From: Amycolatopsis tolypomycina
Lineage (GTDB): Bacteria; Actinomycetota; Actinomycetes; Mycobacteriales; Pseudonocardiaceae
Direction of reading: 5' to 3'
DNA length: 64,000 nt
NCBI RefSeq assembly: GCF_900105945.1
Contig: NZ_FNSO01000004.1
Location: 5,084,001 to 5,148,000, forward strand
The notes beneath the pieces are model-generated. The model saw nothing but the letters and a program-made list of their open reading frames with translations. It was not told the DNA's origin and made no database searches. Positions 16,587-49,071 of this stretch are shown one piece after another; within the stretch, counting starts at the first letter, position 1; every line of letters starts with the position of its first letter. The position numbers were made by a program, and so were the translations under genes.

Positions 16587-17417
16587 TCAGCTGCGCTGGT
16601 ACTCCTCCCAGGTGACCTTGGTGACCTGGGGGCCGTCGTCGGCGCCGCGGCCGGCGAGGCCGTTCATGCCCAGGTAGTAGTCACCGGTCTGGTGCTGCGC
16701 CCCCGAGGACAGGTCCGGGTCGGAGACCGCCATCGCGTGGATGTGGTAGTCGAAGCCCTGCGCCGGCGTGCGCAGCCAGGCCGCGAACCCGACCTTGCGC
16801 AGCGCGGTCAGCAGCTTCGTCCGGTTCGCCGAGGAGATGTTCAGGACCGAGATGTCCATCGCGCCGCCGCCGTCGTGGGTGCCTGCCGAAGCGTCGACGC
16901 CGCCCGCGTTGTACGAGCCCTGGGTGAGGGTCACCTGCGCGCCGTAGAGCCGCTCCGCCTCGACGAGCATCGCCTTGGTGCGGGTGTTGAGGGTCTTGCT
17001 GTGGTAAGTCACCTGGCTGCCGGCGGAGACCGGGTTCGTGACCGTGTAGCGGCCTTCGCCCAGCTTCTCCAGCGAGGTCTTGCCCGGCAGGCCGGAAGCG
17101 TCGAGACCGGTGTAGCCCAGCGACTTCTGGTACTGCGAGTACGCCGAGATCGTGGTGGTGCCGAAGTAGCCGTCGACGTACTGGCTGTCGAGCAGGCCCT
17201 TCGCCTGCAGCGCCTGCTCGACGAGCAGGACGCTGTCGTGCGCACCCGGGGTCTGGGTGCTGTCGGCCCGGCGCGGGTCGATCTGGGCCGCCTTCAGCAC
17301 GGCTTCCATGTTCGCGCCCGGCAGAACCGTCGTGGCCGCAGTCTCGGCCTGAGCCGGTGCGGCCACGGCGAACGTCGCGGCGGTGAGCGCCGTGAGTACG
17401 GCGGCCTTCGTGAACAT
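16587..17417 (-). CDS. Secreted peptidoglycan-binding M15-type D,D-carboxypeptidase-like protein
   Basis: 276 residues with a signal peptide ending near AQA (about residue 24). Residues about 60-115 form a peptidoglycan-binding domain (SVLLVEQALQAKGLLDSQYVDGYFG). The C-terminal half has zinc-ligand motifs of the M15 family: GTHDGGGAMDISV (H-x-x-G-x-A-x-D) and FDYHIHAMAV (H-x-H). It should trim peptidoglycan stem peptides outside the membrane. ATG 17417 is preceded by GGAGGACAAGG. On the template side, TACAA occurs at 17472 and 17483, i.e. an 11-bp direct repeat of TTGTA upstream of the start, a possible activator site (weak). It is divergent from the NlpC/P60 hydrolase gene across a 612-base region. 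Confidence 0.8.
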   Translation of the reverse strand: MFTKAAVLTALTAATFAVAAPAQAETAATTVLPGANMEAVLKAAQIDPRRADSTQTPGAHDSVLLVEQALQAKGLLDSQYVDGYFGTTTISAYSQYQKSLGYTGLDASGLPGKTSLEKLGEGRYTVTNPVSAGSQVTYHSKTLNTRTKAMLVEAERLYGAQVTLTQGSYNAGGVDASAGTHDGGGAMDISVLNISSANRTKLLTALRKVGFAAWLRTPAQGFDYHIHAMAVSDPDLSSGAQHQTGDYYLGMNGLAGRGADDGPQVTKVTWEEYQRS

Positions 17418-17543
17418 CCTTGTCCTCCATGGTTCGTCAGTTCCAACGGCCATGAGGATCAAGCAACCGGATACAAGGGACGTACAAACCGGTTTCCCCC
17501 GGCTTGGACACAACCGGACACGGCAAAGGTCCACAACGGACGC

Positions 17544-17711
17544 CGTGTCGCCCCTCCAATCACGCGTGTCGCCCCTCCAATCACGGGTGTCGTCCCTCCA
17601 ATCACGGGTGTCGTCCCTCCAATCACGCGAGATCCGCCTCCAGACACGCCGAATCCGCCCCCAATCACGCGAGATCCGCCTCCAGACACGCCGAATCCGC
17701 CCTCAATCCCG
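17544..17711. repeat. Tandem array of eight 21-bp units
   Basis: Eight units, all exactly 21 bp, start at 17544, 17565, 17586, 17607, 17628, 17649, 17670 and 17691. Units 1-4 are CGTGTCGnCC followed by CTCCAATCACG (first base C or G). Units 5-8 form a duplicated 42-bp pair (CGAGATCCGCC/TCCAGACACG and CCGAATCCGCC/nCAATCnCG). Each unit begins CGTG-like and ends CACG, so unit junctions read CACGCGTG. The same unit occurs at 30570-30632 and 30813-30913. The region lies between divergent cell-wall hydrolase genes; no protein is predicted here. Confidence 0.9.
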
Positions 17712-18029
17712 CGTGACTACGTGTAATCCCAGCCACATCCGAGTGCGTTTGCACTGGTCCAGCCGTGTTGTCGATCGTCACGCAGAGTTTCCGGCACCCC
17801 CGACTGGACTCCCCCCGTGCTCGTTTCGTAACCTGTTCGAGATCTCGCGGCCCCCGGTCGTCCCCAAGACGGCGACGCGAGATCGCCGCCGACACCCCCT
17901 GCCGGGTACCGGACCCCACCGCGGGCTCTCCCTGTTGCGGTCGAGCGCGCCCTGGGCACGGGCGAGGCCCCCGACTCGCCGTCCCGGTACCCGTCCGGCG
18001 GCCGATCAGCAAAGGAGACCCGCGCGAGA
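17712..18029 (+). other. Long structured leader of the NlpC/P60 gene
   Basis: 318 bases without a gene. They contain a 9-bp stem GATCTCGCG (17841-17849) with CGCGAGATC (17876-17884), enclosing a smaller CGTC/GACG stem, and a 9-bp pair GGGTACCGG (17904-17912) with CCGGTACCC (17984-17992). AAAGGAG stands 10-15 bases before the ATG. It looks like an untranslated RNA leader. I compared it with the ydaO (c-di-AMP) riboswitch, common before such genes, and did not find its conserved core. Confidence 0.45.
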
Positions 18030-19079
18030 ATGCGTTCGCATCCCGTGAAGCGCGTGGTGTCAGGTGCCCTCGCCGCGGCCTCGGTGATCACCGTCGTCAC
18101 CATGGCCCAGCCGGCCACCGCCGCCCCCGTCCCCGTCCTCCAGGCGCCGCCCACCGGCTCCGACGCCCTCGCCAAGTACCGCGACCTCGCGGCGCAGGCG
18201 GAAAAGCTCAACGAAGACCTGCTCGCGGCCCAGGCCGACCTGACCGCGAAGCAAGGCCAGCTCGACAAGGCCAACGCCGACGTCGACGCCGCGAAGAACG
18301 CCGGCGCCCAGGCCGTCGAAGCCAAGCAGAAGTACCAGTCCGAAGTGGACAAGTTCGCCGGCGCGTCGTTCACCAGCGGCGTCCAGATGAACAAGCTGTC
18401 GGCGCTGCTGGCCGGAACGTCCACTCAGGACTTCCTGGACCGGTCCGCGGCCCTGGAAGTCATCGCGACCGACAAGAACGCCGCGATGGACAACCTCAGC
18501 GACGCGGCGGCCAAGGCCGAGGCAGCCGAGCGCACGGCCGCCGACGCGGCGAAGCGGGCGCAGGACGCCCGGGACGCGGCGGCGAAGCTGGCGTCGGACA
18601 TCGAAGCCAAGAAGAAGGACCTGCAGGGCCAGATCGACCAGATCGAGGCCCAGAGCCGGAGCCTCAGCAACGCCGACCGGGCCGCCCAGAAGGACACCGG
18701 CGGGGCGGCGCCGAACGTCAAGGCGCCCACCGCCGCCGCGCAGGCCGCGGTCAACGCGGCGCTGAGCAAGCTCGGCAGCGCCTACGTCTGGGGCGCCACC
18801 GGGCCGAGCACGTTCGACTGCTCCGGCCTGATGCAGTGGGCGTACAAGCAGGCCGGCATCACCCTGCCGCGGAACTCCGCGGCGCAGGCCGGGTTCGGCA
18901 CCCCGGTGTCGCGCAGCCAGCTGCAGCCCGGCGACCTGGTCGCCTACTACTCCCCCGTGTCCCACATCGGGATGTACATCGGCGACGGCAAGATGGTGCA
19001 CGCGCCGACGAGCGGCGACGTCGTCAAGATCTCGCCGCTGATGAGCGAGTACGCGGGAGCCACGCGCCCCACGGCGTGA
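18030..19079 (+). CDS. Secreted NlpC/P60 endopeptidase with coiled-coil region
   Basis: 349 residues: signal peptide (cleavage near TAA-AP, residue 32), a long Ala/Lys/Asp-rich coiled coil (about 45-225), and an NlpC/P60 domain (about 238-349) with catalytic Cys264 in TFDCSGLMQWAY and His312 in SHIGMYIGDG. This is the RipA/RipC-like layout of actinobacterial D,L-endopeptidases that split peptidoglycan stem peptides during division; the coiled coil may be an FtsEX/FtsX-type contact or an autoinhibitory arm. Preceded by AAAGGAG and a 318-base leader, and followed by a strong terminator. Its divergent neighbour is another wall hydrolase, so the two may share control through the intervening repeats (inference). 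Confidence 0.87.
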   Translation: MRSHPVKRVVSGALAAASVITVVTMAQPATAAPVPVLQAPPTGSDALAKYRDLAAQAEKLNEDLLAAQADLTAKQGQLDKANADVDAAKNAGAQAVEAKQKYQSEVDKFAGASFTSGVQMNKLSALLAGTSTQDFLDRSAALEVIATDKNAAMDNLSDAAAKAEAAERTAADAAKRAQDARDAAAKLASDIEAKKKDLQGQIDQIEAQSRSLSNADRAAQKDTGGAAPNVKAPTAAAQAAVNAALSKLGSAYVWGATGPSTFDCSGLMQWAYKQAGITLPRNSAAQAGFGTPVSRSQLQPGDLVAYYSPVSHIGMYIGDGKMVHAPTSGDVVKISPLMSEYAGATRPTA

Positions 19080-29001: not shown

Positions 29002-29850
29002 GTGCCCGAAAACCCGGTATTTTTCATCACCGGCTGCTCCAGCGGCCTCGGCCGCGCGCTGGCCGAAGCGGTCCTCGACCGCGGCCTGCGCGCTGTTGTC
29101 ACCGCCCGCGATCCGGCGCGGGTCGCCGACCTCGTCGCGGCCCACGGCGACCGCGCGCCGGCCCTGCCGCTCGACGTCACCGACCACGCCCAGGTCGTCG
29201 ACGCGGTGAAGCGGGCCGAAACGGCGTTCGGCCGGATCGACGTCCTGGTCGGCAACGCCGGCTACGGCTACCTCGCCGCGGTCGAGGAAGGCGAGGACGA
29301 GGAGATCCGAAAGCTGTTCGACACCAACGTGTTCGGCCTCGCCGACGTCACCAGGGCAGTGCTGCCGGGCATGCGGGCGCGGCGCAGCGGCCACATCGTC
29401 ACGGTGTCGTCCCTCGGCGGGTTGGCGGCTTTCGGCGCCACCGGTTACTACCACGCGACGAAGTTCGCCGTGGAGGGACTTTCGGAGTCCCTGGCCGCGG
29501 AAGTGGCGCCGCTGGGCATCAAGGTGACCATCGTGGAGCCCGCCGCGTTCCGCACCCACTGGTCCGGCCCGTCGATGCGGCAGTCGGCGATCCGCATCGA
29601 CGACTACGCCGAGACCGCGGGCGCCCGCCGCAAAGCGACCCTCGCGACGTACGGACGGCAGCCGGGCGACCCGGCCCGCGCGGCCGAAGCGATCCTCGCC
29701 GCCGTCGGCAGCGACGAACCGCCACTGCGCCTGCTCCTCGGCCGGGCCGCCTACGACATCGCCACCGCCCGCCTCGACACCCTCCGCGCCACCTTCGACA
29801 CCTGGCGCGAAACCACCCTCGCCACCGACTTCCCGGAAGGAACCCCGTGA
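29002..29850 (+). CDS. Short-chain dehydrogenase/reductase
   Basis: 282 residues from GTG 29002. Classical SDR: FFITGCSSGLGRALAEA (T-G-x-x-x-G-x-G), LVGNAGYGYLAAVEE (NAG), the catalytic Ser in TVSSLGGLAAFG, and Y-x-x-x-K in GYYHATKFAVEGLSESLAAEV. The sequence around the NAG motif and the length match the group often annotated as SDR family oxidoreductases acting on retinol- or steroid-like compounds; the substrate is unknown. The preceding XRE/MmyB gene probably controls it. Its TGA overlaps the next GTG (GTGA). Confidence 0.85.
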   Translation: MPENPVFFITGCSSGLGRALAEAVLDRGLRAVVTARDPARVADLVAAHGDRAPALPLDVTDHAQVVDAVKRAETAFGRIDVLVGNAGYGYLAAVEEGEDEEIRKLFDTNVFGLADVTRAVLPGMRARRSGHIVTVSSLGGLAAFGATGYYHATKFAVEGLSESLAAEVAPLGIKVTIVEPAAFRTHWSGPSMRQSAIRIDDYAETAGARRKATLATYGRQPGDPARAAEAILAAVGSDEPPLRLLLGRAAYDIATARLDTLRATFDTWRETTLATDFPEGTP

Positions 29851-30566
29851 AGACCGTCCTCATCACCGGAGCCAGCAGCGGCATCGGCCGCGCCACCGCC
29901 CTGCGCCTGGCCCGCGAAGGCCACCACGTCGTGCTCGGCGCCCGCCGCGAAGACCGGCTGACCGCGCTGGCGAAGGAAATCCACGACGCCGGCGGGACCG
30001 CCGACGTGCACCGCCTCGACGTCACCGACCGCGCGAACGTCGCCGCGTTCGCCGGCGCCGCCGTCGAAGCGCACGGACGGCTCGACGCCTTCGTCGCCAA
30101 CGCCGGCGTGATGCCGTTGTCGCGGTTGGACTCCCTGCACGTCGACGAGTGGGACCGGATGATCGACGTCAACGTCCGCGGCCTGCTGCACTCGATCGCG
30201 GCGGTCCTCCCGCACTTCCGCCGGCAGGGCGGCGGCCACTTCGTGACGATCGCCTCCACGGGCGCGCACGAGGTCGTCCCGACGGCCGCGGTCTACTGCG
30301 GCACCAAGTACGCGGCCCGGGCGATCACCGAAGGCCTGCGGCTCGAAGCCGACCCGGGCATCCGCGTGACGACCGTCTCCCCCGGCGTCACCGAGTCCGA
30401 ACTCGCGGACACGATCACCGAACCGGGTGCCCGGGAAGCGATGCGCACCTACCGCGCGGTCACCCTCCCGGCGGACGCGATCGCCGGGGCGGTGGCCTAC
30501 GCGCTCGGGCAGCCGGAGGACGTCGACGTCAACGAGATCATCGTCCGGCCGACCGCCCAGCGCTGA
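29847..30566 (+). CDS. Short-chain dehydrogenase/reductase (second of pair)
   Basis: 239 residues from GTG 29847, translationally coupled to the previous SDR by GTGA. It starts KTVLITGASSGIGRATALRLAREG, has DAFVANAGVMPLSRL, catalytic Ser in TIASTGAHEV, and Y-x-x-x-K in VYCGTKYAARAITEGLRLEA. It resembles NADP-dependent SDRs annotated as NADP-dependent 3-hydroxy acid dehydrogenase YdfG-like. The C-terminal PEDVDVNEIIVRPTAQR is characteristic of that group. It ends four bases before the 21-bp repeats. Confidence 0.85.
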   Translation: MKTVLITGASSGIGRATALRLAREGHHVVLGARREDRLTALAKEIHDAGGTADVHRLDVTDRANVAAFAGAAVEAHGRLDAFVANAGVMPLSRLDSLHVDEWDRMIDVNVRGLLHSIAAVLPHFRRQGGGHFVTIASTGAHEVVPTAAVYCGTKYAARAITEGLRLEADPGIRVTTVSPGVTESELADTITEPGAREAMRTYRAVTLPADAIAGAVAYALGQPEDVDVNEIIVRPTAQR

Positions 30567-30569
30567 CGC

Positions 30570-30632
30570 CGTGTCGTCCCCCGGATCACGCGTGTCGACC
30601 CTCTGATCACGCGTGTCGACCCTTCCGGCACG
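30570..30632 (+). repeat. Three direct units of the 21-bp repeat
   Basis: Units at 30570-30590, 30591-30611 and 30612-30632 match the array at 17544 (CGTGTCGnCC then CTyyrATCACG, the third ending CCGGCACG). As at 17544, the first unit is preceded by GACGC. They begin four bases after the SDR stop codon, so they would be transcribed in the 3' end of that mRNA. Confidence 0.88.
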
Positions 30633-30812
30633 TTGCGGCACCGCGGGAAGGCGGAAATGCCGGCGTCCCGGCCGGTGGCGGCGTTCAGGGACCTCGGCCG
30701 CTTCGACGCCGAACGGCTCGAGGAAGCGGGAGCCGGGACCGCGCGGCTCGACATCACCCGCGGCCGTCGCCGCCGTCGGGGAACTCGAGTTCGAGTGGAC
30801 CTACTCCTCACG

Positions 30813-30913
30813 CGTGTCGACCCTTCCGGCACGGCGGCCGGAGCGGCCGGCGTGATCAGGGAGCCAACACGCGTGATCAGGAGGTCGACACGCGTGATTG
30901 AAGGGTCGACACG
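30813..30913. repeat. One direct and three inverted units of the 21-bp repeat
   Basis: A direct unit at 30813-30833 (identical to the one at 30612) is followed by units in reverse orientation at 30851-30871, 30872-30892 and 30893-30913 (CGTGATyrrG then GrGGTCGACACG in the best copies). The last unit ends two bases before the convergent NnrD stop. Together with 30570-30632 it makes an imperfect long inverted repeat around 180-220 bases. The interior 30633-30812 contains no intact gene; weak SDR-like fragments are visible (ERLEEAGAGTARLDIT). Confidence 0.85.
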
Positions 30914-30915
30914 GG

Positions 30916-31785
30916 TCAGCGCTCCAGCTCGGCGATGACCCGCGGGATCTCCGCCACCAGCTCGCGGGCCAGCAGGCCGGTGCTGCCGGTGTCCGGGATC
31001 AGCCGCTGGCCGGCGACCGCGTGGACGTGCGTGGCCCAGCAGGCCGCCTGCTCGACCGCCGCGCCGCGGGCCAGGAAGCCGCCGGTCAAGCCCGCCAGGA
31101 CGTCGCCGCTGCCGGACGTCGCCAGGCCGACGTGGCCGCTGCCGTCGCGCCATGCGCGGCCGTCCGGGGCGGCGACCACTCCCATCAGGAGCACCGCGCC
31201 GCCGTAGCGGCCGGCGATGCGCACGGCCGTCTCCAGGTCGTCGACGTCCTTCTCCTCGCAGCCGTCGAGGTATGCGGCTTCGACCCGGTTCGGCGTGAGG
31301 AGGAGCCGGCCGGCCAGGGGTTCCGCCAGGGACGGGTCCCGGCTCAGCGCGCCGAGCGCGAACGCGTCGAGCACCACCCGCGCGTCCGGGGCGATGGCAG
31401 GCACCAGGCGCCGCAGCAGGTCTTCGGTCTCCTCGGCGCCGGTCAGGCCGGGGCCGACCACGACCGTGCCCGCGCCGGGCAGCACCTCGGCCAGCCGGTC
31501 GACGGCGTCGGCGGCGATCGCCCCGGACGGCGTCTCCGGCAGTCCGAACACCGACGACTCGGGGACCGAGACGCCGAGTGCCGTCGCGTGCCGTTCGGCG
31601 ACCGCCACCTGCAGCGTGCCCGCTCCGGCGCGCAGGGCGGCCGTGCCGGACAGCGCCGGTGCGCCCGGCACCGTCCGGGCGCCGCCGACGACGAGCACCG
31701 TGCCGCGGTCGTCCGCGCCGATCCGCCAGTCCCGCAGCAGGGCCGGGCTGATCGGCGCCGGGTCAGGAGAGCTGCTGCGCGGCAT
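30916..31785 (-). CDS. nnrD: ADP-dependent NAD(P)H-hydrate dehydratase
   Basis: 289 residues of the ribokinase-like carbohydrate-kinase fold of the NnrD/YjeF C-terminal family. Key segments: GTVLVVGGARTVPGAPALSGTAALRAGAG at the start, TVVVGPGLTG, VVLDAFALGAL, LLLTPNRVEAAYL, and the nucleotide-binding TSGSGDVLAGLTGGFLARG, the most diagnostic. It converts hydrated NAD(P)H, a damage product, back to NAD(P)H using ADP. Here the epimerase half (NnrE) is absent, so a separate epimerase must exist. Start overlaps the phosphatase gene by 23 bases, indicating co-transcription. Confidence 0.85.
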   Translation of the reverse strand: MPRSSSPDPAPISPALLRDWRIGADDRGTVLVVGGARTVPGAPALSGTAALRAGAGTLQVAVAERHATALGVSVPESSVFGLPETPSGAIAADAVDRLAEVLPGAGTVVVGPGLTGAEETEDLLRRLVPAIAPDARVVLDAFALGALSRDPSLAEPLAGRLLLTPNRVEAAYLDGCEEKDVDDLETAVRIAGRYGGAVLLMGVVAAPDGRAWRDGSGHVGLATSGSGDVLAGLTGGFLARGAAVEQAACWATHVHAVAGQRLIPDTGSTGLLARELVAEIPRVIAELER

Positions 31786-47527: not shown

Positions 47528-49071
47528 TGGGCGACGACTACAAGAGCAAGGACGTCAGCCTCCACGGTTCGGAACTGTTCAACAGCGACAACGCGTCCGC
47601 CGGCGCGGGCTTCTTCGAGGCCGCGATCGGCCTGGACAAGGCCGTCAAGGAGAACGACAAGGTCGCCATCGGCATCGGCTCCGCGGGCATGGCGCTGGAG
47701 ACGATCGGGCTCGTGCTGGACCCGATCGGCAGCCTGCTCACGGCCGGGATCGGCTGGCTCATCGAGCACATCACGATCCTGCGGTGGCCGCTGGACATCC
47801 TGATGGGCGACCCGATCGGCATCGCGGCGGCCAGCGAGGCGCTCACGGCGGAGAAGAAGAAACTGGAGCAGTGGTCGGCCGACCACCAGGGTGCGCTCGA
47901 CACGCTGCTGAAGGAGTGGAGCGGGAGCGCCGCGGACCAGTTCAAGAAGGACATGGACGCGGTCACCGAGCAGCTGGCCTCCCTCGGCGGCTACCTCGAC
48001 CAGGCCGGCAAGAACATGAAGATCGCCGGCGGCATCGTGGGCGCGTTCCGCGGCATCCTCCGCGACCTGATCGCGATGCTCCTGGCCACGATCGTGAAGG
48101 GCGCCCTGATCGCGGCGGCCCTGGCCCCGGTGACGTTCGGCGCCTCGATCGCGATCTTCATCGGCACGACGATCGGCACGGTGGCCACGGCACTGGGCAA
48201 GATCGGCGCCAAGCTGGCCCAGCTGGCGAAGAAGCTCGGCGACCTGCTCCAGGCCCTGACGAAGATGGGCAAAGCGGGCGACGACCTGGTGGCAGCCAAG
48301 CCCTCGACGAGCAGCCTGACACCGACGCCCACCCCGAAGCCGGCACCCAAACCCGAGCCGGCACCGGCGCCGAAGCCGGACACCACGCCTTCGTCGGCCA
48401 CCCCGGAGCCCAAGCCGGACACGACCCCGGACCCCAAGCCCGAGCCGAAACCGGAACCGACGCCCTCGTCCTCCACCCCGGACCCCAAGCCGGACACCAC
48501 ACCTTCCTCGGCCACCCCGGAACCGAAACCCGAGCCCAAGCCGGACACCACTCCCGAGCCCAAGCCCGAGCCGAAACCGGAACCGGCACCCTCGTCCTCG
48601 TCGAGCACCCCGGACCCCAAGCCCGAGCCCAAACCGGACACCACCCCCGAGCCCAAGCCGGACGCCGCGCCCTCGTCGGCGACCCCGGAGCCCAAGCCGG
48701 ACACCACCCCGGAACCCAAGCCCGACACCACGCCCGACCCGAAGCCGGACACCACCCAGTCCACTCCGGATCCCAAGCCGCACAAGCCGTTCACCGATCA
48801 GATGACCGACGTCATCAAGACCAAGCTGTCCCAGGTCGACGGTGTGACGCCCGAGATCATGCAGAAGTTCGACAAGATCAGCAACTTCTCCGTGCACGAG
48901 CTCGGCAAGCTCTTCGGCAAGGAGGGCGCCGAAAAGTTCGAGTCGGCGATCAAGGTCATGACGGACCCGTGGTTCGGCAAGTCGGGACTGGCGGGCAAGA
49001 CGGTCGTCGACATGATCAAGGGCGTGCCGGCCAGCGTCGGCAACGTCACCGGCGGGGAGGACGAGAACTAG
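47527..49071 (+). CDS. Type VII-type secreted protein with long Pro-Lys repeat region
   Basis: 514 residues from GTG 47527. Residues 1-255 are helical with long hydrophobic helices ([49 protein letters not shown]) and a W-S-G motif at W131 ([19 protein letters not shown]), as in large WXG-type ESX substrates. Residues about 259-421 are a low-complexity region of PKPEP/PKPDTTP repeats that may span or bind the wall. The C-terminal 93 residues ([24 protein letters not shown]...) fit no family I know and have no immunity gene beside them. Third gene of a coupled operon with YbaB and EspC-like proteins. Function unknown. Confidence 0.7.

Follow-up and report, generated by a model that had tools for sequence, protein, structure and literature searches.

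REP elements of enterobacteria and pseudomonads are located at the ends of genes. In REP/BIME families, short extragenic sequences occur in hundreds of copies that are inverted relative to each other, and a REP is defined as a GT(A/G)G head preceding an imperfect palindrome (PMC2817692). These elements are also reported as targets of insertion sequences (PMC1525189). REPINs are dispersed units made of two inverted repeat arms, for which excision events were reported (PMC3116915). In Escherichia coli, the DNA gyrase motif covers ~130 bp with a phased 10-bp variation in G/C, the regions downstream of transcribed operons show an enrichment in gyrase sites, and the intergenic BIME-2 have the properties of strong gyrase sites (PMC6379681). 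The same study reports that the downstream enrichment is seemingly not hard-wired and that the gyrase signal at BIME-2 goes up when transcription is blocked (PMC6379681).

We analysed a stretch of 64,000 nucleotides of Amycolatopsis tolypomycina (the window, from a genome of 10.36 Mb called G000 below) that contains a tandem array of 21-bp units. This array is a member of a dispersed extragenic family restricted to the genus. Like REP/BIME, the family has more than 100 extragenic copies and 326 tandem junctions in G000, inverted composite copies (31 of 61 clusters), and an insertion sequence that targets it (all five full-length copies of a 1.27-kb element lie in arrays, a parallel to the report in PMC1525189). 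It differs from them in its unrelated sequence (the consensus CACGCGTGTTGACCCTTCAATCACG lacks the GT(A/G)G head), in the lack of a Y1/RAYT transposase in G000, and in its 21-bp tandem lattice with arms spaced by nearly whole helical turns. It shares with REPINs the dispersed unit of two inverted arms, but REPINs are associated with RAYTs and have one repeat per arm, whereas the arms are here runs of tandem units. The strong gyrase sites (Mu SGS, BIME-2) are similar in being ~130 bp of DNA with a phase of ~10 bp, which here takes the form of A/T power at 10.5 bp, partly inherent in 21-bp repeats. They differ in that the Amycolatopsis elements are built from discrete repeated units, for which gyrase would only be a candidate partner. 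We found no description of the 21-bp repeat in searches of the open literature. A catalogue of prokaryote satellites reports 23 of them in Amycolatopsis mediterranei, and its abstract and sections 9 and 10 do not describe the 21-bp family (PMC6749651).

The array of the window and its neighbouring genes

The array was read from the sequence as eight contiguous 21-bp units at 17544..17711 (+), in agreement with the first-pass annotation of this DNA. Its cap end, CGCCGTGTCG (17541..17550, +), resembles the beginning of many other elements, GCCGTGTCG. Within 17544..17711 (+), four cap-side units of the CGTGTCGCCCC/GGTGTCGTCCC type are followed by four distal units, in which the CGAGATCCG and CCGAATCCG types alternate. 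The distal half is indeed a duplicated 42-bp pair, as had been noted (17628..17711, +; 40 of 42 positions identical), and the unit does recur 13 kb away, in a second element at 30566-30917. The claim that a palindrome, CACGCGTG, occupies every junction did not hold: it is exact at only one of the seven internal junctions, the remaining ones being CACGGGTG, CACGCGAG, and CACGCCGA (two each). The octamer is not enriched in the whole window either (6 found against a chance mean of 5.23). The units of the array are quite diverse, with pairwise identities of 9 to 21 out of 21 (mean 14.5). A blastn search with the array gave no match in plasmid or phage records.

The array had been described as lying between divergent D,D-carboxypeptidase-like and NlpC/P60 genes. 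The divergent orientation and the NlpC/P60 family of the right-hand gene (18030/18045..19079, +) were confirmed, but the left-hand gene (16587..17417, -) lacks a D,D-carboxypeptidase domain and only matches PG_binding_1 below the cut-off (E up to 0.001). The two genes are adjacent in 20 of 27 relatives, where they are 402-501 bp apart, versus 613 bp in G000. We scanned both strands of the orthologous loci of the 27 relatives for the unit, excluding an alignment in which minus-strand relatives were mis-oriented, and found no 21-bp unit at this position. We therefore rejected a regulatory array specific to wall hydrolases. Given this absence, and the fact that only 3 of the 61 clusters of G000 lie between divergent genes, the association with wall-hydrolase genes looks incidental. 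The array runs in one direction, and its place between divergent genes makes it atypical of the 21-bp family. It was found in none of the relatives examined and might not serve any function by itself.

Two other features of the window were noticed. The NlpC/P60 gene is preceded by a leader (17820-18029) that appears strongly conserved in the correctly oriented relatives, with no Rfam match. Tandem repeats of 24, 39, and 126 bp rich in proline codons, at 48329-48757, are probably a coding repeat.

A dispersed family restricted to the genus

The first-pass annotation had proposed scanning this genome and its relatives with the consensus. In G000, a 25-mer consensus with at most 2 mismatches has 112 matches (59 + 53), versus none for the reversed control, and a broader tandem pattern identifies the 326 tandem junctions, again with none in the reversed control. 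A weight matrix found 345 units in 61 sources (1.18 Mb), versus 2 for the reversed matrix; the stretches of G000 among them were picked around 100 of the 112 strong matches, which over-represents that unit type, and the background stretches, which make up 13 of the 61 sources, contain a single match.

The broader pattern matches 41 of 80 genomes of the genus and is absent from the other 39. Matches number 75-470 in 37 genomes and 1-2 in the remaining 4, and the reversed control has no match in any of the 80. The copies are thus nearly all-or-none among genomes, with at least 75 in 37 of them and at most 2 in 43. These two groups offer a natural comparison to search for a putative factor by which the elements are maintained or read. 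The narrower pattern gives a similar picture, matching 39 of the 80 genomes, and within the family it matches 16 of 297 genomes, all from this genus, i.e., 1 of 46 genera. In the order, the broader pattern matches 24 of 397 genomes; 14 of these are among the 383 searched outside the genus, with one match each (two in G144), all with 2 mismatches, and the control itself matches in one genome. An exact scan of a named collection matched 16 stretches, from Amycolatopsis only.

It had been suggested that a restriction of the unit to two loci in the genome, or a lack of conserved spacing in relatives, would indicate random tandem duplication. The number of copies and the 21-bp steps refute both. 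The 42-bp pair of the array is a local duplication, and in this sense a tandem duplication did take place, but the idea that the repeat is nothing else, with neither family nor function, is extremely improbable: it is at odds with the 326 tandem junctions (none in the control), with the 37 genomes having at least 75, and with the regularities of location and phase described below. We rejected it on the 112 versus 0 consensus matches and the counts across the genus.

The elements typically abut the 3' ends of genes

We studied the location of the 61 intergenic clusters of at least two units in G000, using genes called with our own codon-usage script, not a published caller. Forty clusters lie between convergent genes, 18 between co-directional genes, and 3 between divergent genes. 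Convergent placement is much more frequent than in gaps of more than 100 bp (40/61 versus 72/366, p 2e-12, the latter including the gaps with arrays). It is also in excess in G002 (19/39 versus 26/123, p 0.001), and G026 shows no such bias (0 of 6 loci). Array ends that are within 10 bp of a gene end, or slightly overlap it, are all at 3' ends: 46 versus 0 at 5' ends in G000, 11 versus 0 in G002, and 1 versus 0 in G026. The stop codon is TGA in 38 of these 46 abutting gene ends, and in 9 the TGA belongs to the CGTGA of the repeat itself. None of the 61 clusters extends further than 30 bp into a called gene.

The second element of the window illustrates this placement. It lies between a short-chain dehydrogenase (SDR; 29847..30566, +) and a convergent NAD(P)H-hydrate dehydratase (Carb_kinase; 30916..31785, -). 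Its first arm (three units, 30566..30632, +) begins at the stop codon of the former, and its second, inverted arm (three units, 30851..30917, -) ends at the stop codon of the latter. In G000, the arms are separated by ~200 bp of additional sequence, and an extra unit lies at 30809..30833 (+). Among the 25 genomes compared at this locus, the element is present in 8, the two stop codons are 0-12 bp apart in 15, and another hairpin is found in 2. The junction is a precise empty site (TGA-CGC-TCA) in G055 and G066 and is filled in G052 and G029.

Units, arms, and A/T content follow the helical turn

The clusters of G000 have units in both strands (31/61) or in a single one (30/61). Of the former, 29 have two arms, which are arranged either as - then + (type A, 17 clusters) or as + then - (type B, 12 clusters). 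Exactly 3+3 units are found in 15 clusters, with spans of 126-216 bp, 12 of them within 136-151 bp and 11 within 138-151 bp. The steps between units of the same strand are almost always exactly 21 bp: 237/246 in G000, 113/119 in G002, 74/75 in G008, and 25/25 in G026.

The distance between arms was analysed in the 84 inverted neighbour pairs of these four genomes. We dropped nine pairs as related, on the basis of the similarity of their flanks or spacers, part of which is probably a shared flank of an insertion sequence (distances 38, 37, 19, 39, 17, 29, 34, 33, and 53), and left out the two type B pairs above 130 bp (176 and 225). Sixteen named loci, with 14 arm pairs within 260 bp, were not pooled in this test. 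Type A distances (n=47) are strongly periodic (R = 0.913 at a period of 10.5, best period 10.45), as are those of type B (n=26, Rayleigh R = 0.798, best period 10.60), and none of 20000 replicates in each of two null models reached these values for either type. Type A distances are 17, 27-29, 36-39, 58-60, and 80, which correspond to spacers of 0, 10-12, 19-22, 41-43, and 63 bp. The spacers of 10-22 bp have no obvious sequence in common, and degenerate units are visible inside some of those of 41-63 bp. For type B, the distances that do not exceed 130 are 32-35, 42, 53-55, 63-66, 75-76, 95-97, and 106-108. In 60 loci fetched later, identified with a different scan method and not thinned for relatedness, type A pairs are in the predicted phase (within 2 bp) in 33 of 33 cases and type B in 6 of 11. 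The type B misses are four zeros, where a palindromic core is counted on both strands, and one step of 21 bp. Arm distances are mostly multiples of 21, which a continued lattice of units would also produce. Only the minority of half-unit, off-lattice type A distances (27-29 in the first set; 10, 31, and 31 in the later one) separates a period of 10.5 from one of 21.

The A/T content is also in phase with the helix, with a mean power of 5.4 at 10.5 bp in 46 elements. The corresponding mean is 1.1 for intergenic windows (n=1114; MWU p 2e-20) and 0.9 for coding windows (n=14291). The difference is partly built in, since any tandem repeat of 21 bp has power at this period to some degree. In the window array, the two ends reach 12.5 and 15.6. 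Within the unit, the A/T harmonic at 10.5 bp (5.57) exceeds those at 21 bp (0.57) and 7 bp (1.64), and that at 2.33 bp is larger (10.3). Positions 6 and 8 of the unit are A or T in 97% each of the 345 units, with T and A interchanged. These results are in line with one reading offered at first, that of a helical-phase array for protein binding, as regards the 21-bp steps, the spacing of arms near steps of 10.5 bp, and the A/T phase; the type B pairs of the later loci follow it only in part.

Gain, loss, and mobility of the elements

Elements come and go as complete units, and the occupancy of individual gene junctions varies between relatives. At the junction L022, 17 of 26 close genomes have an array, G051 has two divergent 21-bp units, and G067 has a remnant. 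This junction is occupied in all 19 element-rich close genomes, a count that omits four more distant genomes (including the element-rich G045, with no array there), and the seven genomes without an array have 0-1 copies genome-wide. The type of unit at L022 varies between species (TCGACAC, GGCATCAC, and CGTAACTC kinds) and the 21-bp step, as read by eye, is constant. At another junction, L065, arrays are found in the close genomes G000, G057, G044, G023, and G030. There is no array, and the stop codons overlap, in seven element-rich relatives (G066, G065, G052, G029, G039, G051, and G040), so occupancy is not a rule. A tree of 26 genomes based on three proteins groups five genomes without elements in one clade (support 0.99), and G006 (1 copy) and G041 (none) branch elsewhere nearby. 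Wholesale loss on a short branch is possible in G041, whose near relatives G030 and G040 have more than 200 copies, but its placement is weakly supported (0.30).

We identified five full-length copies of a 1.27-kb insertion sequence in G000, encoding a transposase with rve and HTH_21 domains, which we take to be of the IS3 type. All five are inside arrays (L010 14948-16213, L023 8320-9585, L024 8469-9734, L034 9263-10528, and L041 8169-9434), and their 4-bp duplications (CACG, CGTG, CTCG, CTCT, and CGGG) fall at the core of the repeat. We rejected mobilisation by RAYT in G000, where the Y1/RAYT profile PF01797 has no match; the control search was positive in 5 of 14 known genomes. An ORF of 900 bp lies between a plus and a minus arm at L009 (8085-9079), and likewise at L056, and by eye it resembles an endonuclease or AbiEi. 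We did not retain a cargo gene as a general mobiliser: arrays spaced like those around the 1-kb stretch of L009 occur in L053, L056, and L062, and these four are apparently the same locus (the ORF was compared between L056 and L009 only).

The elements could be selfish and miniature, i.e., non-autonomous sequences without a role for the host, in which transposition machinery acts on helically phased sites and which are kept where they do the least harm. Stop-codon junctions that are either precisely filled (G052 and G029) or empty (G055 and G066) are expected from such elements, as are the nearly all-or-none spread over genomes, the empty position of the window array in 27 relatives, and the seven element-rich relatives lacking an element at L065. 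However, G000 has no Y1/RAYT transposase, L022 is filled in 19 of 19 element-rich close genomes despite the change in unit type, and the 21-bp step outlasts the divergence of the units. We regard this explanation as plausible, while on balance doubting it, and a selfish origin and a role for the host are not necessarily in conflict.

DNA scaffold or RNA hairpin

The first-pass annotation had mentioned a hairpin-forming RNA as an alternative to protein binding. This does not fit the window array, for which seven of the eight units fold no better than shuffled sequences (z +0.22 and +1.73), but the three inverted elements that we folded all form strong hairpins (z -11.75 to -13.04). Inverted arms transcribed at convergent 3' ends might thus act in both directions, as a terminator or a stem stabilising the mRNAs of the two genes, and the location at stop codons and the unrelated hairpin sequences that fill the same junctions in some relatives would suit such a function. 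In type A elements, the match of an arm to its own partner is slightly above that to shuffled partners (7.68 versus 7.17 out of 11; 30/5000). In type B, it is not (4089/5000). We thus rejected compensatory pairing between arms, weak in the former and absent in the latter. Several other observations argue against a hairpin RNA: 30 of the 61 clusters are in a single strand (the window array being the only such array that was folded), and a hairpin does not need loops that grow in steps of 10.5 bp. The elements do not conform to intrinsic terminators, in the sense of a hairpin followed by a U run, as only 1 of 122 cluster ends has TTTT within 20 nt, and there are no terminator-like sites at 17400-18050. 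Known structured RNAs were rejected as well: Rfam has no match at the gathering score in the window, L065, L022, and L042, nor at E up to 1 in 17380-18080. Altogether, we consider a function as RNA hairpin unlikely.

We favour, with moderate confidence, the view that this is a REP/BIME-like, genus-restricted extragenic family working as double-stranded DNA, in which each element would be a helically phased scaffold at gene ends for a putative binding or wrapping protein. That the phasing of units, arm spacing, and A/T content persists despite changes in the letters points to such a function. An element is a lattice of 21-bp units, each of two helical turns, in one run or two inverted arms. On one side of the helix, the units expose a common core (about RATCACGCGWG) and the half-turns that contain A/T, and the arms tend to join at whole-turn spacings. 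A protein could bind the element, or wrap it, along that face. Its action on the DNA of gene ends would most likely consist in handling the positive supercoils that accumulate where transcription units converge. The leading candidate for this protein is DNA gyrase, given the ~130 bp of phased 10-bp G/C variation of its E. coli motif and the strong-gyrase-site properties of BIME-2.

Some of our results weigh against the scaffold. The partner matching of type A (30/5000) leaves room for a role as hairpin, none of the six loci of G026 is convergent, L065 is empty in seven element-rich relatives, and copies number no more than 2 in 43 of the 80 genomes of the genus. The E. coli study's own statements, on the downstream enrichment not being hard-wired and on the rise of the BIME-2 signal without transcription, would also run counter to gyrase. 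A stronger version of the scaffold, which we think somewhat unlikely, is that of hard-wired wrapping stations throughout the genome: palindromic lattices of ~145 bp, phased from end to end, would serve where genes converge to capture gyrase or a dedicated architectural protein, and a putative trans-acting factor would control whether a species has scores to hundreds of copies or nearly none. If the scaffold is real, sequence turns over and helical geometry stays, which would separate the readout of DNA shape from that of letters. With pairs of junctions that are filled in one genome and empty in another, the effect that hard-wired sites for handling supercoils would have between convergent genes can be tested directly.

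In relatives, some of these convergent junctions contain different near-perfect hairpins (L147 and L153 at the 30.5-kb locus of the second element, and L238). They have ends of the form GTGAGTG...CACTCAC and an AGAAC centre, and these three sequences may represent a second dispersed family of hairpins.
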